Positions 18,430 through 25,520 of a stretch of 64,000 nucleotides of DNA are shown here, one piece after another. The stretch is from Reyranella sp. (GTDB lineage: Bacteria; Pseudomonadota; Alphaproteobacteria; Reyranellales; Reyranellaceae). Where the stretch lies: positions 62,001 to 126,000 of the forward strand of contig NZ_JAUSBN010000055.1 in NCBI RefSeq assembly GCF_030651995.1. The letters are read 5' to 3'. The notes under the pieces were generated by a model. That model had not been told where the DNA came from. It worked only from the letters and a program-made list of their open reading frames with translations, and did not search any database. Position 1 is the stretch's first letter; each line of letters opens with the position of its first letter. Both the position numbers and the translations under genes were made by a program.

Positions 18430-19602
18430 CTACTCCCTTTCCAGAATGATGGTGGCGCTGCCGTGCCGCAGGCCGAGCGAGCCGCCCGTGCCGTGCGCGA
18501 CCGCCAGATTGCAGTTCGCCACCTGCACCTTGGGGTGCGCCTCGCCGCGGAGCTGACGCACCGCCTCGAGGACCTTGGTGAGGCCGCCACGGTTGCCCGG
18601 GTGGTTGCTGCAGAGGCCACCGCCATCGGTGTTGAACGGCAGCTTGCCCGTCCCGGAGATCAGGTTGCCGTCAGCGACGAAGGCGCCGCCCTTGCCCTTC
18701 TCGCAGAAGCCGAGATCCTCGAGCTGCATCAGGACCGTGATGGTGAAGCTGTCGTAGATCGAGGCGTACTTGATGTCGGCGGGCTTGACGCCCGCCTCGG
18801 CGAAGGCCGCCGCGCCGGTGAAGCGCGCACCCGAGTAGGTGAGATCGACCTTGCCGCCCATCTGCGTCTTCACGAACTCCGAGGCGCCCAGCAGCTTGAC
18901 CTTCGGCCGTTTGAGCTTGGCCGCGATCTCCGGCGCCACGACGACGATCGCGCCACCGCCGTCGGTGATGACGCAGCAGTCGAGCCGATGCAGCGGATCG
19001 GAGATCATCGGCGAGTTCACGACCTCCTCGACCGTGACCACGTCCTTCAGCAGCGCGTGCGGATTGTATTGCGCATGGTGCGAGGCGGCGACCTTGATCC
19101 AGGCGAGTTGCTCGGAGGTCGTGCCGTACTCGTACATGTGGCGCATGGCGCACATCGCGTACATGTTCACCACGGTCGGACCGTAGGGAAACTCGAACGG
19201 TTCGTCGGGGGTCGGCGTGCCGCCGCGGCTGCGCGGCACGGTGCCGGTCGCCATGCCCTCGGCGCGCGGCCGGCCGGCGAGGGTGATCAACGCCACCTTG
19301 CACTTGCCGGCGGCGATCGCCTCGGCGGCGTGGCCGACATGCAGCACATAGGAGGAGCCGCCGGTGTCCGTCGAATCGACGTGGCGCGGCTTCAGCCCCA
19401 TGTATTCGACCATGGACATCGGGCCGAGGCCCGGTGCGTCGCCGGCGCAGAAATAGCCGTCGACATCGTCCTTCGTGAGGCCCGCATCCTCCAGCGCGCC
19501 CTTGGCGCACTGCGCATGGATCTGGGCCAACGAGATATCCTTCGCGAGCCGCGTCGGATGCTCATAGATTCCCGCAATATAGGCCTTGCCCTTGATGCTC
19601 AT
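18430..19602 (-). CDS. thiolase-fold protein (lipid-transfer / SCP2-thiolase type)
   Basis: 390 residues with thiolase-superfamily features: DSTDTGGSSYVLHVGHAAEA in the N-terminal half, NPHALLKD, DGGGAIVVV, and the C-terminal NTDGGGLCSNHPGNRGG and AHGTGG (His). At the place where biosynthetic thiolases carry the nucleophilic Cys this protein has GGSS, as I recall for many DUF35-partnered homologues, so it may be a lyase or claisen-type partner rather than a standard thiolase. The start at 19602 follows AAGGGGGA; a 12-codon upstream extension exists. It is the first gene of a two-gene unit with DUF35. Confidence 0.82.
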   Translation of the reverse strand: MSIKGKAYIAGIYEHPTRLAKDISLAQIHAQCAKGALEDAGLTKDDVDGYFCAGDAPGLGPMSMVEYMGLKPRHVDSTDTGGSSYVLHVGHAAEAIAAGKCKVALITLAGRPRAEGMATGTVPRSRGGTPTPDEPFEFPYGPTVVNMYAMCAMRHMYEYGTTSEQLAWIKVAASHHAQYNPHALLKDVVTVEEVVNSPMISDPLHRLDCCVITDGGGAIVVVAPEIAAKLKRPKVKLLGASEFVKTQMGGKVDLTYSGARFTGAAAFAEAGVKPADIKYASIYDSFTITVLMQLEDLGFCEKGKGGAFVADGNLISGTGKLPFNTDGGGLCSNHPGNRGGLTKVLEAVRQLRGEAHPKVQVANCNLAVAHGTGGSLGLRHGSATIILERE

Positions 19603-19734
19603 CGGCGAGCCATCCCCCTTGTCGATTGTGCAGCGCACATGGTGGGGGATCGCAGCCTCACAGGAAAGTGCGCTCTTTCGCTCCGAAGAACGATGCTCGG
19701 CTCTGCGGAACGCGAGAGGACTCCCCGGCGACGA

Positions 19735-20949
19735 TCAATCGCCCGCGACGTCGCGCGCGCCGGGCGTGCGGGCGCGGAATTCCTCGGGGGCTTCGCGGCC
19801 GGCATCGGTGAAGGCCTTCTTCACCGCCGCCACGTTCGGACCGAAGATGCCCTTGCGATTGTCCTTGGCCCACTGGTTCGAGTTGATGATCGTGTCGAGC
19901 GAACCCTGGAAGCGCGGCATCACGTAGCGCGCGAACAGCTCGTAGGAGCGCAGGATCTGCTCGCGCGTCGCCCATTCGTGGGCGCGGAACAGGACGCCGC
20001 CGAAGCCGCCGTTGGAGAAGCCGAGGAGCCGCTCGATGCCCTTGGCCACCGTGTCGGGACTGCCGACCAGGGTCGTGCCCATCTTTACGCCGTCGCGCAG
20101 CGGATCGTCGGCGCGGCCCGGCGGGCGGCCGAGCGTGTCCTCGAAATAGGTCATGGTCTCGCGACGCTCGCCGGCATGGACCTCGCGCAACGCCTGCTCG
20201 TCATCCTCCGTCACATGGCAGTTCACCACGACGCGCCACTTGCTGCGGTCCGCCGTCTTGCCGTGCTTGGCCGCCGTCTCCTCGTAGATGCCCCACTGCT
20301 TGCCGAGCATCTCTGGCCCGCCTGGGATACCGGCGCCGATCGACAGGACGCCGAGGCCGTGCTTGCCGGCGGCAATCATGCCCGACGGGGTGATGGTGCT
20401 GGCGCAGGCGATCGGGAAATGCGGGTAGCTGTAGGGCGCGAGATGGAGCCGCGCCTCCTTCAGCTCGAACCAGTCCGTCTTCATCGTGACCGGCTCCTTG
20501 CATTCCAGCAGGCGCATGATCGCCTCGAGCGCCTCCTCCATGCGCGGGCGCTGGGTCGAGGGATCGATGCCCATCATGTAGGCATCCGACGGCAGCGCCC
20601 CGGGACCGCAGCCCAGCATCGTGCGGCCGCGCGACATGTGGTCGAGCTGCACGAAGCGGTTCGCGACCATCAGCGGATGATGATAGGGCAGACTGGTCAC
20701 GCCGGAGCCGAGGCGGATGTAGCGTGTGCGCTCGATGGCGGCGCCGATGAAGACTTCCGGCGACGCGATGGTCTCCCAGCCGGCGGAATGATGCTCGCCG
20801 ATCCAGGCTTCGTCGTAGCCCAGCTCGTCGATCCACTCGATCAGCTCCATGTCGCGTGCCATCGAGAGAGTCGGGTTCTCGCCGACGCGATGGAACGGCG
20901 CCAGGAAGATGCCGAACGTAAGTCCCTTGTGATTACCGGTCTGTGCCAT
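19735..20949 (-). CDS. LLM-class flavin-dependent oxidoreductase
   Basis: 404 residues of the bacterial luciferase-like (TIM barrel) superfamily: FGIFLAPFHRVGENP at the N-terminus, EWIDELGYDEAWIGEHH (about residues 38-54), RLGSGVTSLPYHHP, and TTLVGSPDTVAKGIE near the C-terminus. These enzymes use reduced flavin from a partner reductase to oxygenate or desulphonate organic substrates. The gene is divergent from the CaiB fusion gene and 132 bases from the thiolase operon. Substrate unknown. Confidence 0.9.
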   Translation of the reverse strand: MAQTGNHKGLTFGIFLAPFHRVGENPTLSMARDMELIEWIDELGYDEAWIGEHHSAGWETIASPEVFIGAAIERTRYIRLGSGVTSLPYHHPLMVANRFVQLDHMSRGRTMLGCGPGALPSDAYMMGIDPSTQRPRMEEALEAIMRLLECKEPVTMKTDWFELKEARLHLAPYSYPHFPIACASTITPSGMIAAGKHGLGVLSIGAGIPGGPEMLGKQWGIYEETAAKHGKTADRSKWRVVVNCHVTEDDEQALREVHAGERRETMTYFEDTLGRPPGRADDPLRDGVKMGTTLVGSPDTVAKGIERLLGFSNGGFGGVLFRAHEWATREQILRSYELFARYVMPRFQGSLDTIINSNQWAKDNRKGIFGPNVAAVKKAFTDAGREAPEEFRARTPGARDVAGD

Positions 20950-21026
20950 TGAAGTCCTCCATCACGCGCGACGGTAGCATGTGCGCGACGTTGACCGCAG
21001 CACCGGCTTGCGCAGATCATCGCGCA

Positions 21027-23366
21027 ATGTCCGAGACTCCTTCCCTGCCGCTCGCGCGCTTCACGATCGTCGAGGTTAACGACGCAAAAGCGCCGCTCTG
21101 CCTGCGTCTTGCGACATCTCTCGCGGCCAAGATCGCGGCCGATCTCGGCGCCGACGTGCTGAAGATCGAGCCGCCTGAGGGCGATCCGGTGCGTCGTGCG
21201 CCGCCCTTGCTGCCGCAGGGCGGAAGCGCGCTGTTCGAGTTTCTCAACACGTCGAAGCGCTCCCTGGTGCTCGATCTTGCAAGCGAGTCCGGCCGCACCG
21301 CGCTTGCCCGTCTGGTCGACAAGGCCGACGTCGTGCTGTTCGAAGAGTCGGCTTCCGTCGCTGCATCCCTGCGGAAGGCGAAGGCCACGCCGGTCGAGAT
21401 CGCGGCTTTTCCGCTCGAGATGGATGCAGCGCAGCGTCCCGTCAGCGAGCTGGTGATACAGGCGCTGGGTGGGCTGATGCACATGGTGGGCGAGCCGGCA
21501 CGCAAGCCGCTGAAGCTGGGTGGCCACCAGGCTCCCTATCCCGCTGGGCTCACCGCCTTCACCGGGCTCATGACGGCACTCGCCGCGCGTGACACCGGGC
21601 GCCGGGCGCCCTCGGTGCGCGTGTCGCTCGCTGAAGTGATGCAGTGGGTGAACTGGAAGGCGGCCTCCGGCGCCGCCGCCACGGGCATCTCGCCCGGCCG
21701 CGAGGGCAAGAACTCGGAATTCCAGGTCCTGCCGTGCCGCGACGGCCATGTCGCCGTCGTCTACACCGTCACCCAGTGGCCGGCGACGCGCGCCCTGATC
21801 GGCGATGCACGGCTCGACGATCCGAAGTTCGGCACGCGGGCCGGCCGTCGCCAGAACATCGCCGAACTCTATGCCGCACTCGCGCCGTGGTTCGCCGACA
21901 AGACGCGCGACGAGATCCAGAAGGTCGCGCAGGCCAAGGGCGTCCCGTTCGGCCCCATCTTCTCGCCGGCCGAGCTGCTGCAGACGGAGCAATACGTGGC
22001 GCGCGGCTTCCTGGCCGACATGGCGCATCCCACCGAGGGCACGCTGCGCCTGCCGCAACTTCCCGTGCAATGGAACGGCCGCTCCTTCACCCCGCGGCCG
22101 GCGCCTGATCTTCCCCCTCCCCATTCAAATGGGGAGGTGCCCTCGTCATACGAGGGCGGAGGGGTCAGAGGCCGACCCGCGAAGGATATGACCCCTCCGT
22201 CGAGGATGACCGCGACACCTCCCCATTTGAATGGGGAAGTTGGCGACCACCCCCTCACCGGTGTGCGCGTGCTCGACTTCGGACTGCTGACCGCGGGCGC
22301 GAACACCTCGGCCATGCTGGCCGATCTCGGCGCCGACGTGATCAAAATCGAGTCCGGCGCCTATCTCGATCCGTTCCGCGTCGTCGGCAAGATCGACAGC
22401 GACGAGGGCTGGTGGAACCGCTCGCCGCAGTTCCGCTTCACCAACCGCAACAAGCGCGGGCTGGCGCTGAACCTGAAAGACCCCGAGGGCCAACGCGTCA
22501 TCCGCGAACTCGTCACGCACTGCGACGTCGTGGTCGAGAATTTCCGCCGCGGCGTGCTCGATCGCGCGGGTCTCGGCTACAAGGAGCTGAGCGCGATCAA
22601 CCCGCGCCTGGTGTTCGCCGCCATATCGAGCCAGGGCGACACCGGGCCCGAGCGCATGAACGTGTCGTTCGGCAGCACGCTCGACGCCACCTCGGGCATC
22701 GCCTCGCTCACCGGCTACGAGGGCGAGGAGCCGCGCATCTCCGGCATGGACGTGAACTATCCCGACCAGATCGTGTCGCTGTTCGCCACCGGCATCGTCA
22801 TCGCCGCCGTTGCCGAGGCGCGCCGCACCGGCAAGGGCGCGTTCCTCGACTTCTCCCAGCGCGAGGTGGCGTCGTTCACGCTCGGCGAGGAGATCCTTGC
22901 TGCGTCGGCCGATCCGAACCATCGGCTGGCGCCACGCGGCAATACCGAAGCCGGCGTGGCGCAGCAGGACTCCTATCAGTGCGGCGACGGCAAATGGCTG
23001 GCCGTGACTCTCGACACACCCGATCCATCGATGGCGACTTTCTGCGCCGCCAGAGATCGGGACGACGCATTGAAGATGCTCCTCGGCAAAGGCATCGCCG
23101 CCGCCCCCTGCCTCGACGGCAACGATCTCCTGCGCGACACCAAACTGCAGGGCGTCACGCTGGTGCGCGACGAGAATGGCAGCCTCGTGAAGGGTCTGCC
23201 TTACCGGCTCGACGGCAAAGGTCTCGCCATCGAGCGGCCCGCCCCGGATCTCGGCCAGCATACCGAGGAGGTTTTGCGCGAGCTGTTGGGCTACGAGGAC
23301 GCCCGCCTGAAGCAGTTGAACGATAGCGGCGTGACCTCGACCACGCCCACCATCGGAGAGGTTTGA
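21027..23366 (+). CDS. fused two-domain CaiB/BaiF family CoA-transferase
   Basis: 779 residues made of two CaiB/BaiF (class III CoA-transferase) domains, about residues 10-360 and 410-775, each with the nucleotide-fold signature (KIAADLGADVLKIEPPEGD; MLADLGADVIKIESGAYLD). In domain 2 the region of the catalytic Asp reads MDVNYPDQIVSLFATG and keeps an Asp; in domain 1 the matching region (HQAPYPAGLTAFTG) has none, so domain 1 is probably not catalytic by itself. The linker (about residues 363-404) is translated from a palindromic DNA element. The start at 21027 (MSETPSLPL) avoids a non-conserved extension into the divergent promoter. It is followed at 3 bases by a nitronate monooxygenase gene. 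Confidence 0.85.
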   Translation: MSETPSLPLARFTIVEVNDAKAPLCLRLATSLAAKIAADLGADVLKIEPPEGDPVRRAPPLLPQGGSALFEFLNTSKRSLVLDLASESGRTALARLVDKADVVLFEESASVAASLRKAKATPVEIAAFPLEMDAAQRPVSELVIQALGGLMHMVGEPARKPLKLGGHQAPYPAGLTAFTGLMTALAARDTGRRAPSVRVSLAEVMQWVNWKAASGAAATGISPGREGKNSEFQVLPCRDGHVAVVYTVTQWPATRALIGDARLDDPKFGTRAGRRQNIAELYAALAPWFADKTRDEIQKVAQAKGVPFGPIFSPAELLQTEQYVARGFLADMAHPTEGTLRLPQLPVQWNGRSFTPRPAPDLPPPHSNGEVPSSYEGGGVRGRPAKDMTPPSRMTATPPHLNGEVGDHPLTGVRVLDFGLLTAGANTSAMLADLGADVIKIESGAYLDPFRVVGKIDSDEGWWNRSPQFRFTNRNKRGLALNLKDPEGQRVIRELVTHCDVVVENFRRGVLDRAGLGYKELSAINPRLVFAAISSQGDTGPERMNVSFGSTLDATSGIASLTGYEGEEPRISGMDVNYPDQIVSLFATGIVIAAVAEARRTGKGAFLDFSQREVASFTLGEEILAASADPNHRLAPRGNTEAGVAQQDSYQCGDGKWLAVTLDTPDPSMATFCAARDRDDALKMLLGKGIAAAPCLDGNDLLRDTKLQGVTLVRDENGSLVKGLPYRLDGKGLAIERPAPDLGQHTEEVLRELLGYEDARLKQLNDSGVTSTTPTIGEV
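22113..22239. repeat. palindromic repeat element inside the CaiB fusion gene
   Basis: About 127 bases built of nested palindromes. Both ends carry CCCCATT-N2-AATGGGG hairpins and are inverted copies of each other. Inner arms GGAGGGGTCA and TGACCCCTCC pair across the centre, and a CCCTCG-N5-CGAGGG hairpin lies in the left half. It is translated in frame as a Pro/Gly/Ser-rich linker between two CoA-transferase domains. Elements of this kind are usually intergenic in Alphaproteobacteria. Confidence 0.8.
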
Positions 23367-23369
23367 TCC

Positions 23370-24350
23370 ATGCCGCGCGCCGAAGTGCACAAGTTGATGG
23401 AGCGCATGGCGATCCCCGCCATCGCCGCTCCCATGTTCCTGGTTTCCAATCCCGCGCTGACGCTCGCCTGCTGCGGCGAGGGGCTGATGGGCAGCTTCCC
23501 CGCCCACGGCACACGCAGCCGCGAGGAGTTTCAGGCCTGGCTCGACGAGATGGTCGAGGGCATGAAGCGCCTGGAGGATGCCGGCAAGAAGCCCGCGCCC
23601 TGGGCGGTCAACCTCGTCGTCCATGCCTCGAACCCGCGCTATCAGGGCGATCTGGAACTGGTCGAGAAATACAAGGTGCCGGTCGTGCTCACCTCGAAGG
23701 GCGCGCCGGGCGATGCCATCCAGCGCATCCACGGCTGGGGCGCCGTGGCGCTCCACGACATCGCCAACCGCCGCCACGCCGAAAAGGCGCTGGAGGCGGG
23801 GGTCGACGGCGTGATCGCGGTGGCAGGAGGCGCCGGCGGCCATACCGGCACCATCAACCCCTTTGCGCTGATGAACGAAGTGCGCCAGCTGGGCGACAGC
23901 TTCGCGATCGTGCTGGCCGGCGGCCAGACGACGGGCCGTGACGTGCTGGCCGCCGAGGCGATGGGCGCCGACCTCGCCTATATCGGCACGCGCTTCATCG
24001 CGACGCAGGAGGCGATGGCGGCACAGGCGCACAAAGACATGATCCTGGGCACGCGCGCGACCGACGTGTTCCTCACCGCCTCGATCGACGGTGCGCCGGC
24101 CAACTGGCTGACGCCCAGCCTGCTGGCCGCCGGCATCGACCTCGACGTGCTGCGCACCACGCTGCCCGGCAAGATCGTGGCGGCAGCGGAGAACAGGAAG
24201 CGCTGGAAGGACATCTACACGGCGGGTCACGGCGTCGGGAACATCGACGACGTCCCCGCCGCCGCCGACCTCGTCCGGCGCCTGATCCGCCAATATCGCG
24301 AGGCGAAGGCTGAAATGGCGCGCAGCCTCGCCGGCCGCGCCGCAGCGTAG
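23370..24350 (+). CDS. nitronate monooxygenase family FMN protein
   Basis: 326 residues, TIM-barrel FMN enzyme: N-terminal IPAIAAPMFLVSNPAL (residues 15-30), GGAGGHTGTI with the His near the flavin, IVLAGGQTTGRD and GADLAYIGTRFIAT phosphate-binding loops. The family includes class I nitronate monooxygenases and trans-2-enoyl-CoA reductase-like proteins. It sits 3 bases downstream of the CaiB fusion gene, suggesting a CoA-linked or flavin-linked step in the same pathway. Confidence 0.9.
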   Translation: MPRAEVHKLMERMAIPAIAAPMFLVSNPALTLACCGEGLMGSFPAHGTRSREEFQAWLDEMVEGMKRLEDAGKKPAPWAVNLVVHASNPRYQGDLELVEKYKVPVVLTSKGAPGDAIQRIHGWGAVALHDIANRRHAEKALEAGVDGVIAVAGGAGGHTGTINPFALMNEVRQLGDSFAIVLAGGQTTGRDVLAAEAMGADLAYIGTRFIATQEAMAAQAHKDMILGTRATDVFLTASIDGAPANWLTPSLLAAGIDLDVLRTTLPGKIVAAAENRKRWKDIYTAGHGVGNIDDVPAAADLVRRLIRQYREAKAEMARSLAGRAAA

Positions 24351-24407
24351 ACGGTGGGCGTCCCCCTGCTCTAGGTTTCGGCTCCAGAGTTTCGAGGGGG
24401 TATCCGC

Positions 24408-25520
<1,113 letters not shown>

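Follow-up and report, generated by a model that had tools for sequence, protein, structure and literature searches.

A palindromic repeat at the junction of two CoA-transferase subunit genes and their probable fusion in Reyranella

A nested palindrome, related to repeats found across the genus Reyranella, lies in frame between the two halves of a fused family III CoA-transferase gene. Since no fusion with a plain linker was found and orthologues without the element are encoded as two genes, the single gene is most likely a product of the element. We regard it as quite probable that this happened by the joining of two adjacent subunit genes at their stop/start junction. In the mechanism proposed here, a mobile-type, REP-doublet-like Reyranella repeat would insert at the stop/start of two adjacent, probably translationally coupled genes, each of which would encode a different subunit of one family III CoA-transferase. 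In doing so it would displace the stop codon of the first gene and the start codon of the second. Provided that the element offers a suitable open frame and its net length fits, the ribosome would read through and produce one chain, in which a non-catalytic and a catalytic subunit would be tied together by about 45 disordered residues.

The fused gene and its palindromic linker

The window analysed here is a stretch of 64,000 nucleotides, positions 62001-126000 of contig C32 in a 5.5-Mb draft genome (G000); its features are collected in Table 1. The reading frame of 779 residues is also open from an upstream GTG at 20943, which represents an alternative start. CoA_transf_3 is the sole Pfam family matched (E 2.3e-141, in three stretches). 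The fused protein has its close relatives in Reyranella and in metagenome genomes near this genus. The surroundings of the fused gene (window 18430-25520) contain likely acyl-CoA metabolism genes, which we take to be thiolase-like and LLM flavin oxidoreductase-like genes, both on the minus strand, together with nitronate monooxygenase-like and alcohol dehydrogenase-like genes.

Table 1. Coordinates of the fused gene, its palindromic element and a second gene carrying the element (window positions unless a contig is named)
Feature	Position	Strand	Remarks
Single open reading frame, 779 aa, two family III CoA-transferase domains and palindromic linker	21027..23366	+	ATG start
Domain 1, BbsE-like	21027..22106	+	Pro at the site of the Asp of solved relatives (Ser in most relatives); separate gene in most relatives
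Linker segment, predicted disordered	22107..22244	+	residues 361-406, pLDDT <50
Domain 2, BbsF-like	22251..23363	+	Asp kept in GMDVNYPDQ; separate gene in most relatives
Palindromic element, REP-doublet-like, nested	about 22113..22240	.	arm analysis and RNA fold
Hairpin A, outer, left half	22116..22137	.	arms 22116-22125/22128-22137
Hairpin B, left variable stem	22139..22157	.	GCCCTCGT/ACGAGGGC
Inner stem	22157..22199	.	22157-22167 with 22189-22199; 11 nt, 100% complementary, 21-nt loop
In-frame ATG within the element, possible internal start	22188..22190	+	second ATG at 22206-22208
Hairpin B', right variable stem	22200..22215	.	one mismatch
Hairpin A', outer, right half	22217..22240	.	arms 22217-22227/22230-22240
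UPF0280-like gene with in-frame element	C24:47092-48096 of G000 (L273)		also L271, L272, L274, L275

The sequence-only reading of this DNA had described a nested palindrome, in frame and free of stops, between two folded domains, and had predicted a very strong hairpin in the middle of the mRNA. These points were borne out. The outer arms (22118-22149 and 22206-22237) span 32 nt and are 88% complementary, and the computed RNA fold of 22100-22256 reaches -94.3 kcal/mol, compared with a mean of -59.0 (sd 4.3) in shuffled sequences (z -8.2; none of 200 shuffles as stable). The reading frame is open across the palindrome, with 44 stop-free codons from 22119 to the start of domain 2 at 22251. Matches to Rfam, for instance to animal miRNA families, were far under the gathering scores and were set aside as chance matches to a long hairpin.

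With regard to the protein, an AlphaFold prediction based on a 32-row alignment yielded a mean pLDDT of 73.7 and a pTM of 0.82 in the best of five models (55 to 64 in the others). Residues 361-406 (22107-22244) have a pLDDT below 50 and lie between the domains, with CoA_transf_3 domains on either side; a stretch of domain 2 (537-577) is also below 50. The Asp of the solved relatives is present in domain 2, in the motif GMDVNYPDQ, and we take it to be the catalytic Asp, in line with the titles of PDB entries of mutants and adducts. This residue is found in 60 of the 61 rows of the alignment, the remaining row being cut short. For domain 1 the corresponding motif could be located in 54 of the 61 rows; the residue is Ser in 49, Ala in two, Pro, Cys and Tyr in one each, and Asp in none.

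Fold comparison ranks family III CoA-transferases highest, and first among them the two-subunit enzyme BbsEF (succinyl-CoA:(R)-benzylsuccinate CoA-transferase; PDB 9fn0, 9fol). In pairwise alignments the A chain of 9fn0 has a Tyr at the position where domain 1 of the window has a Pro, so that both lack the Asp. The title of one BbsEF entry names a D178-CoA adduct. Whereas BbsEF consists of two chains, the Reyranella protein is one chain with a palindrome-encoded linker. As domain 1 is devoid of the Asp and domain 2 retains it, the product of the fusion is probably a BbsEF-like heterodimer in a single chain. The full-length fusion is presumably translated, and its two halves would pair in the manner of BbsEF.

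The same junction in other Reyranella genomes

A search of the genus matched 58 of 65 genomes, and the junction was readable in 55 of them and unreadable in three. The gene is fused in 17 genomes, with 16 complete junctions and one (G063) that is split over two contigs ending inside the palindrome. In all 38 unfused genomes read, the two halves are separate, adjacent genes. With the addition of a second G013 locus and five outgroup loci, the unfused set amounts to 44 rows. The overlap of stop and start reads ATGA in 40 of them and GTGA in three, and in one row the two codons stand apart. In every one of these rows the start codon of gene 2 is in frame, and gene 1 and gene 2 are mutually out of frame.

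A full-length element was identified in 12 complete linkers and in both halves of G063, and the linkers of G077, G005 and G024 have clearly different stems. The linkers of G008, G076 and G051 are pieces of the element, matching the full linkers better than 300 of 300 shuffles. The linker of G065 shows a sequence match to the element that is not above chance (71 of 300 shuffles were as good); its fold surpasses those of all 200 shuffles, and G077, the closest to it in the tree, has the full element. Overall, 16 of the 17 fused linkers clearly represent the element, whole or in part, and the G065 linker is palindromic but can no longer be recognised from its sequence. If G065 is counted among the element-bearing genomes and kinship is disregarded, the association between fusion and element has a Fisher p of 1.5e-14.

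Among the 55 genomes with a readable junction, none was found to have a fused gene with a plain, non-palindromic linker, so that the same linker without palindromic DNA, which would have spoken against the earlier interpretation, did not turn up. That the gene might really be two genes, also considered in the sequence-only reading, is true of most orthologues and not of the window, where the frame is intact. The picture of an element inserted into an already fused gene does not seem to hold, given that the element-less orthologues are two adjacent genes in 38 of 38 cases and plain-linker fusions were not found. Fusion first via a plain linker with later insertion of the element appears very improbable, for even though the same element family enters existing genes in frame (UPF0280-like and LivG) and the G065 linker can no longer be recognised as an element, none of the fused linkers in the 55 readable genomes is non-palindromic and G065 itself is palindromic, next to a relative with a full element.

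An assembly artefact as the source of the fusion was rejected, the fused gene being present in many separate accessions, one of them an isolate (Reyranella aquatilis KCTC 52223). A fused and an unfused locus occur together in one draft, G013 (contigs C65 and C41), which may be a mixed bin, with 6% contamination.

A family of palindromic repeats

The element had been taken for a type usually found between genes, and this fits what the genome search revealed: related palindromes are dispersed through the genome of the window, and their organisation is REP-doublet-like. A half-site motif was defined as GGGGAGGTG, followed by 8-30 bases of any kind and GGAGGG, without presupposing the variable stem. 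It occurs 15 times in the genome of the window and is present in 63 of the 65 Reyranella genomes, with 0 to 367 sites per genome, compared with 0 to 3 per strand for the reversed motif used as a control in the 65 genomes. The half-sites are often arranged in pairs inverted to each other, as an inverted doublet of REP-like units, and the whole therefore forms a REP-doublet-like hairpin. A 28-bp match inside a restriction-enzyme gene (C4:9218) was considered a chance match and excluded from the elements.

The covariation of the stems was assessed in 76 distinct half-sites from three genomes, 65 of which have a stem of suitable length. Their 5-nt arms are paired at a mean of 4.51 of 5 positions, whereas 5000 permutations gave 2.81 on average and 3.31 at most. 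Given that this pairing is high despite the presence of 20 different left arms among the 65 half-sites, the copies differ in stem sequence and yet stay complementary. Stem position 2 is C-G in 63 of the 65 half-sites and position 1 is T-A in 32. By eye, a terminal CGTC (or TGTC/CCTC) is seen in many half-sites, those ending GACGGAGGG, and CGCC or CGGC in others.

Several copies on other contigs of the same genome (L198, L199, L205, L207, L208 and L209, and also L190, L192, L194 and L196) are broken at the CATTCAAATG loop. Beyond the break they run into similar sequence (caggagtgtccggggaaag... or caggctgtccggggaaaat...), and many are near contig ends, as if insertion sequences targeted the hairpin loop of the element.

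The number of copies does not differ significantly between fused and unfused genomes (medians of 63 and 30, p 0.28). With regard to a possible mover, a Y1_Tnp domain was detected in 33 of the 65 genomes, the drafts among which are incomplete. It was not found in the draft of the copy-rich G006 (367 half-sites), and G016 has two Y1_Tnp and no half-sites; half-site count and Y1_Tnp show a weak rank correlation (0.28, p 0.02). The sole Y1_Tnp match in the genome of the window lies at C92:168583-168810 (L210), and the motifs GGGGAGG or GGAGGGGTC are absent from its 3-kb locus. A RAYT-type transposase as the sole mover appears unlikely, on the grounds of this locus without element motif and of the weak genus-wide link. 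Empty and filled sites are too diverged for a target-site duplication to be defined; transposition is presumably how the element moved. REPINs consist of two REP-like units in inverted orientation that form one long hairpin. The Reyranella element resembles them in being an inverted doublet of REP units and differs in having no clear RAYT partner.

Copies in frame within other genes

The sequence-only reading had proposed to look for further copies and to count those inside genes; a second in-frame copy was found in the same genome. Using a codon-bias test of the flanks, 56 elements sampled from G000, G024 and G043 (with one more at an edge) were divided into three in-gene copies, 32 with flanks on the same strand and 21 with differing flanks. 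Of 11 control loci given, the ten detected were all called in-gene, L010 being without the exact motif; as some of these caiB genes had also gone into training the codon-bias table, the controls are not independent. One of the three in-gene calls is the caiB gene of G043 and the other two hold up. Three of 56 is a lower bound, the exact motif having missed the UPF0280 copy in the genome of the window.

In this gene, which we take to be UPF0280-like and for which Pfam found no family, the element adds 138 nt in G043, G079 and G070 and 162 nt in G000. In G063 (L275) there is a mixed insert of 144 nt, with a different palindromic sequence in place of the left half, and 25 of the 30 loci read lack the element. 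The second case is a transporter gene in which LivM and LivG are fused (Pfam BPD_transp_2 and ABC_tran); here the element adds 126 nt in G024 (L301) and 156 nt in G005 (L302), inside the ATPase domain; LivG is free of the element in 28 of the 30 loci read. All seven inserts in these two genes are in frame and open.

The genome of the window thus has at least two in-gene copies, in the caiB fusion and in the UPF0280-like gene. Pfam analysis of ten ORFs overlapping its other copies revealed no clear further in-gene case. The UPF0280 copy escaped Pfam as well, so that a copy without Pfam support need not be intergenic.

Effect of the fusion

The fused enzyme may work just like the two-gene form and be merely tolerated. 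This reading of the fusion as a neutral accident concerns its effect rather than its origin, so it is compatible with the element having joined the genes, and we hold it to be nearly as probable as its opposite. Between G079 and G053, nine linker codons differ non-synonymously and four synonymously, compared with 29 and 81 in domain 2, which suggests that amino acids change freely in the linker; moreover, 38 relatives do without the fusion. Conversely, the frame has been kept through large deletions within the element in G008, G076 and G051, so that the fused state is at least maintained. Free amino-acid change with the frame kept fits a role of the linker as a spacer. Signs of constraint at the nucleotide level are mixed: in four of eight pairs, similarity is higher in the linker than in either of the flanking domain stretches.

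Number of origins

On a quick tree of both domains with the linker left out (61 rows), the fused label has to change six times, and starred branches force at least five of these changes. Five fused genomes form one clade (support 98), and the fused G074 stands alone within an unfused clade (support 97). In approximately unbiased (AU) tests on 54 of the 61 rows, from which four distant outgroups as well as G019, G075 and G080 were left out, a single clade of all 17 fused rows was rejected (p 0.00018). Holding together the main and the five-member fused groups, which were named after the tree had been seen, was also rejected (p 4e-9). G074 is also placed among unfused species in a 54-row tree of the neighbouring gene downstream, which splits the five-member group; with just three starred branches, this tree on its own neither requires a second change nor excludes one origin.

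Against this background, it is unlikely that there was one ancient insertion and fusion in the genus, from which most lineages reverted when they recombined with unfused alleles. Such a history would explain why G074, although placed in an unfused clade, has an element with the same stems and the same 21-nt loop as the main clade, and why G024 shares one stem with that clade, and it is left standing by the neighbour-gene tree. However, besides the rejection of one fused clade by the AU test, no remnant of the element was seen by eye in the 44 unfused rows, whose best scores against the full linkers (at most 35) are within the shuffled range. Furthermore, 15 of 15 alignment windows of 150 codon-aligned columns each place G074 nearest to one of three unfused relatives, the panel consisting of these three and seven fused genomes; a local recombination event that could have given rise to its fusion was looked for in these windows and not seen.

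The sharing of stems by G074 could reflect transfer rather than independent insertion. Two unfused genomes, G017 and G046, lie inside the main fused clade and have an ancestral-looking junction, which calls for an explanation by loss, by allele exchange or by repeated insertion. We conclude that the fusion apparently arose more than once, either through insertion or through transfer of a very short stretch. It is possible, and proposed here tentatively, that the self-complementary repeats found throughout the genus are a recurrent maker of linkers, the subunit genes having been joined several times independently at the same stop/start overlap, with the stems turning over.

Linker frame and internal starts

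The element could instead act on the mRNA or the DNA, the two domains being made separately from an ATG supplied by the element and the open frame being incidental. In 14 of the 16 complete fused junctions an in-frame ATG is indeed found in the linker, so that domain 2 could also start there, and the hairpin predicted in the mRNA is very stable. These ATG codons are situated further upstream, as none lies in frame within seven codons of domain 2 in any of the 16 junctions (there is a GTG at four codons in G015). This alternative appears quite unlikely, since the linkers of G065 and G051 are without any ATG, GTG or TTG and these genes are nevertheless fused. Moreover, the linkers have nine different lengths (96, 99, 108, 114, 147, 165, 168, 171 and 174 nt), all of which are multiples of three and stop-free, which would be needless for separate translation. 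The frame in use is open in all 16 complete linkers, by definition of fusion, and each of the other two forward frames is open in three of 16. Across 15 intact genomic copies of the element, 26 of 90 frames are open, so that openness alone is unremarkable. Joining of the two genes into one reading frame by the element is our preferred explanation.

Relation to known repeats and implications

The sequence-only reading had drawn a parallel with the protein-coding palindromes of Rickettsia, and the two further in-frame insertions, each with orthologues that lack the insert, strengthen it. The Rickettsia palindromic elements (RPE) are described as palindromic repeats of 105-146 bp that are found between genes and in frame within unrelated genes (PMC2229807, PMC10969869). 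The Reyranella element is likewise a palindrome of about 100-150 bp with copies elsewhere and in frame in several unrelated genes, and orthologues without the insert are found here too (caiB in 38 of 55 genomes, UPF0280-like in 25 of 30, LivG in 28 of 30). The comparison with RPE is by description; unlike RPE, the Reyranella element occurs in genomes of free-living type, joins two genes rather than entering one, and has stems that vary strongly between copies and stay complementary. On this analogy, RPE are the closest mechanism, to which the joining of two partner genes would add a new twist.

The closest repeats are the CGTC-tagged REPs of alphaproteobacteria, one defining stem feature of which is absent here. 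They are presented as short palindromes, mostly HH dimers, often near the 3' ends of genes and sometimes intragenic, and their insertions are suggested to be possibly neutral in flexible linkers or loops (PMC3733652). Their defining A-T pairs at stem positions 1 and 2 are not seen in the Reyranella half-sites, in which the CGTC tag is not constant either, and the joining of two genes is not described in the sections of that source considered here (PMC3733652). Fusions of MITE reading frames, in which the frames of small mobile repeats are fused to host genes, have been reviewed by Delihas (PMC2229807); in the passages considered here, the repeat peptide is added to one gene, and the joining of two partners is not described. 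In a literature search that left subscription papers mostly outside its reach, we found no report of a repeat joining two partner genes, nor of such repeats in Reyranella.

In-frame palindromic repeats have so far been described, in the accessible literature, as additions to existing genes. Here, the states before and after the event coexist in one genus, with an overlapping gene pair in most species and a repeat-linked fusion in others. The upkeep of stems that are complementary and variable in sequence raises the question of how such palindromes are maintained. The locus offers a testable case of gene fusion and of interdomain linkers arising from repeat DNA, as well as of the effect of fusing a two-subunit enzyme. 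If the repeats do act as recurrent makers of linkers, the stop/start overlaps of partner genes would be hot spots at which extragenic palindromes create multidomain proteins.
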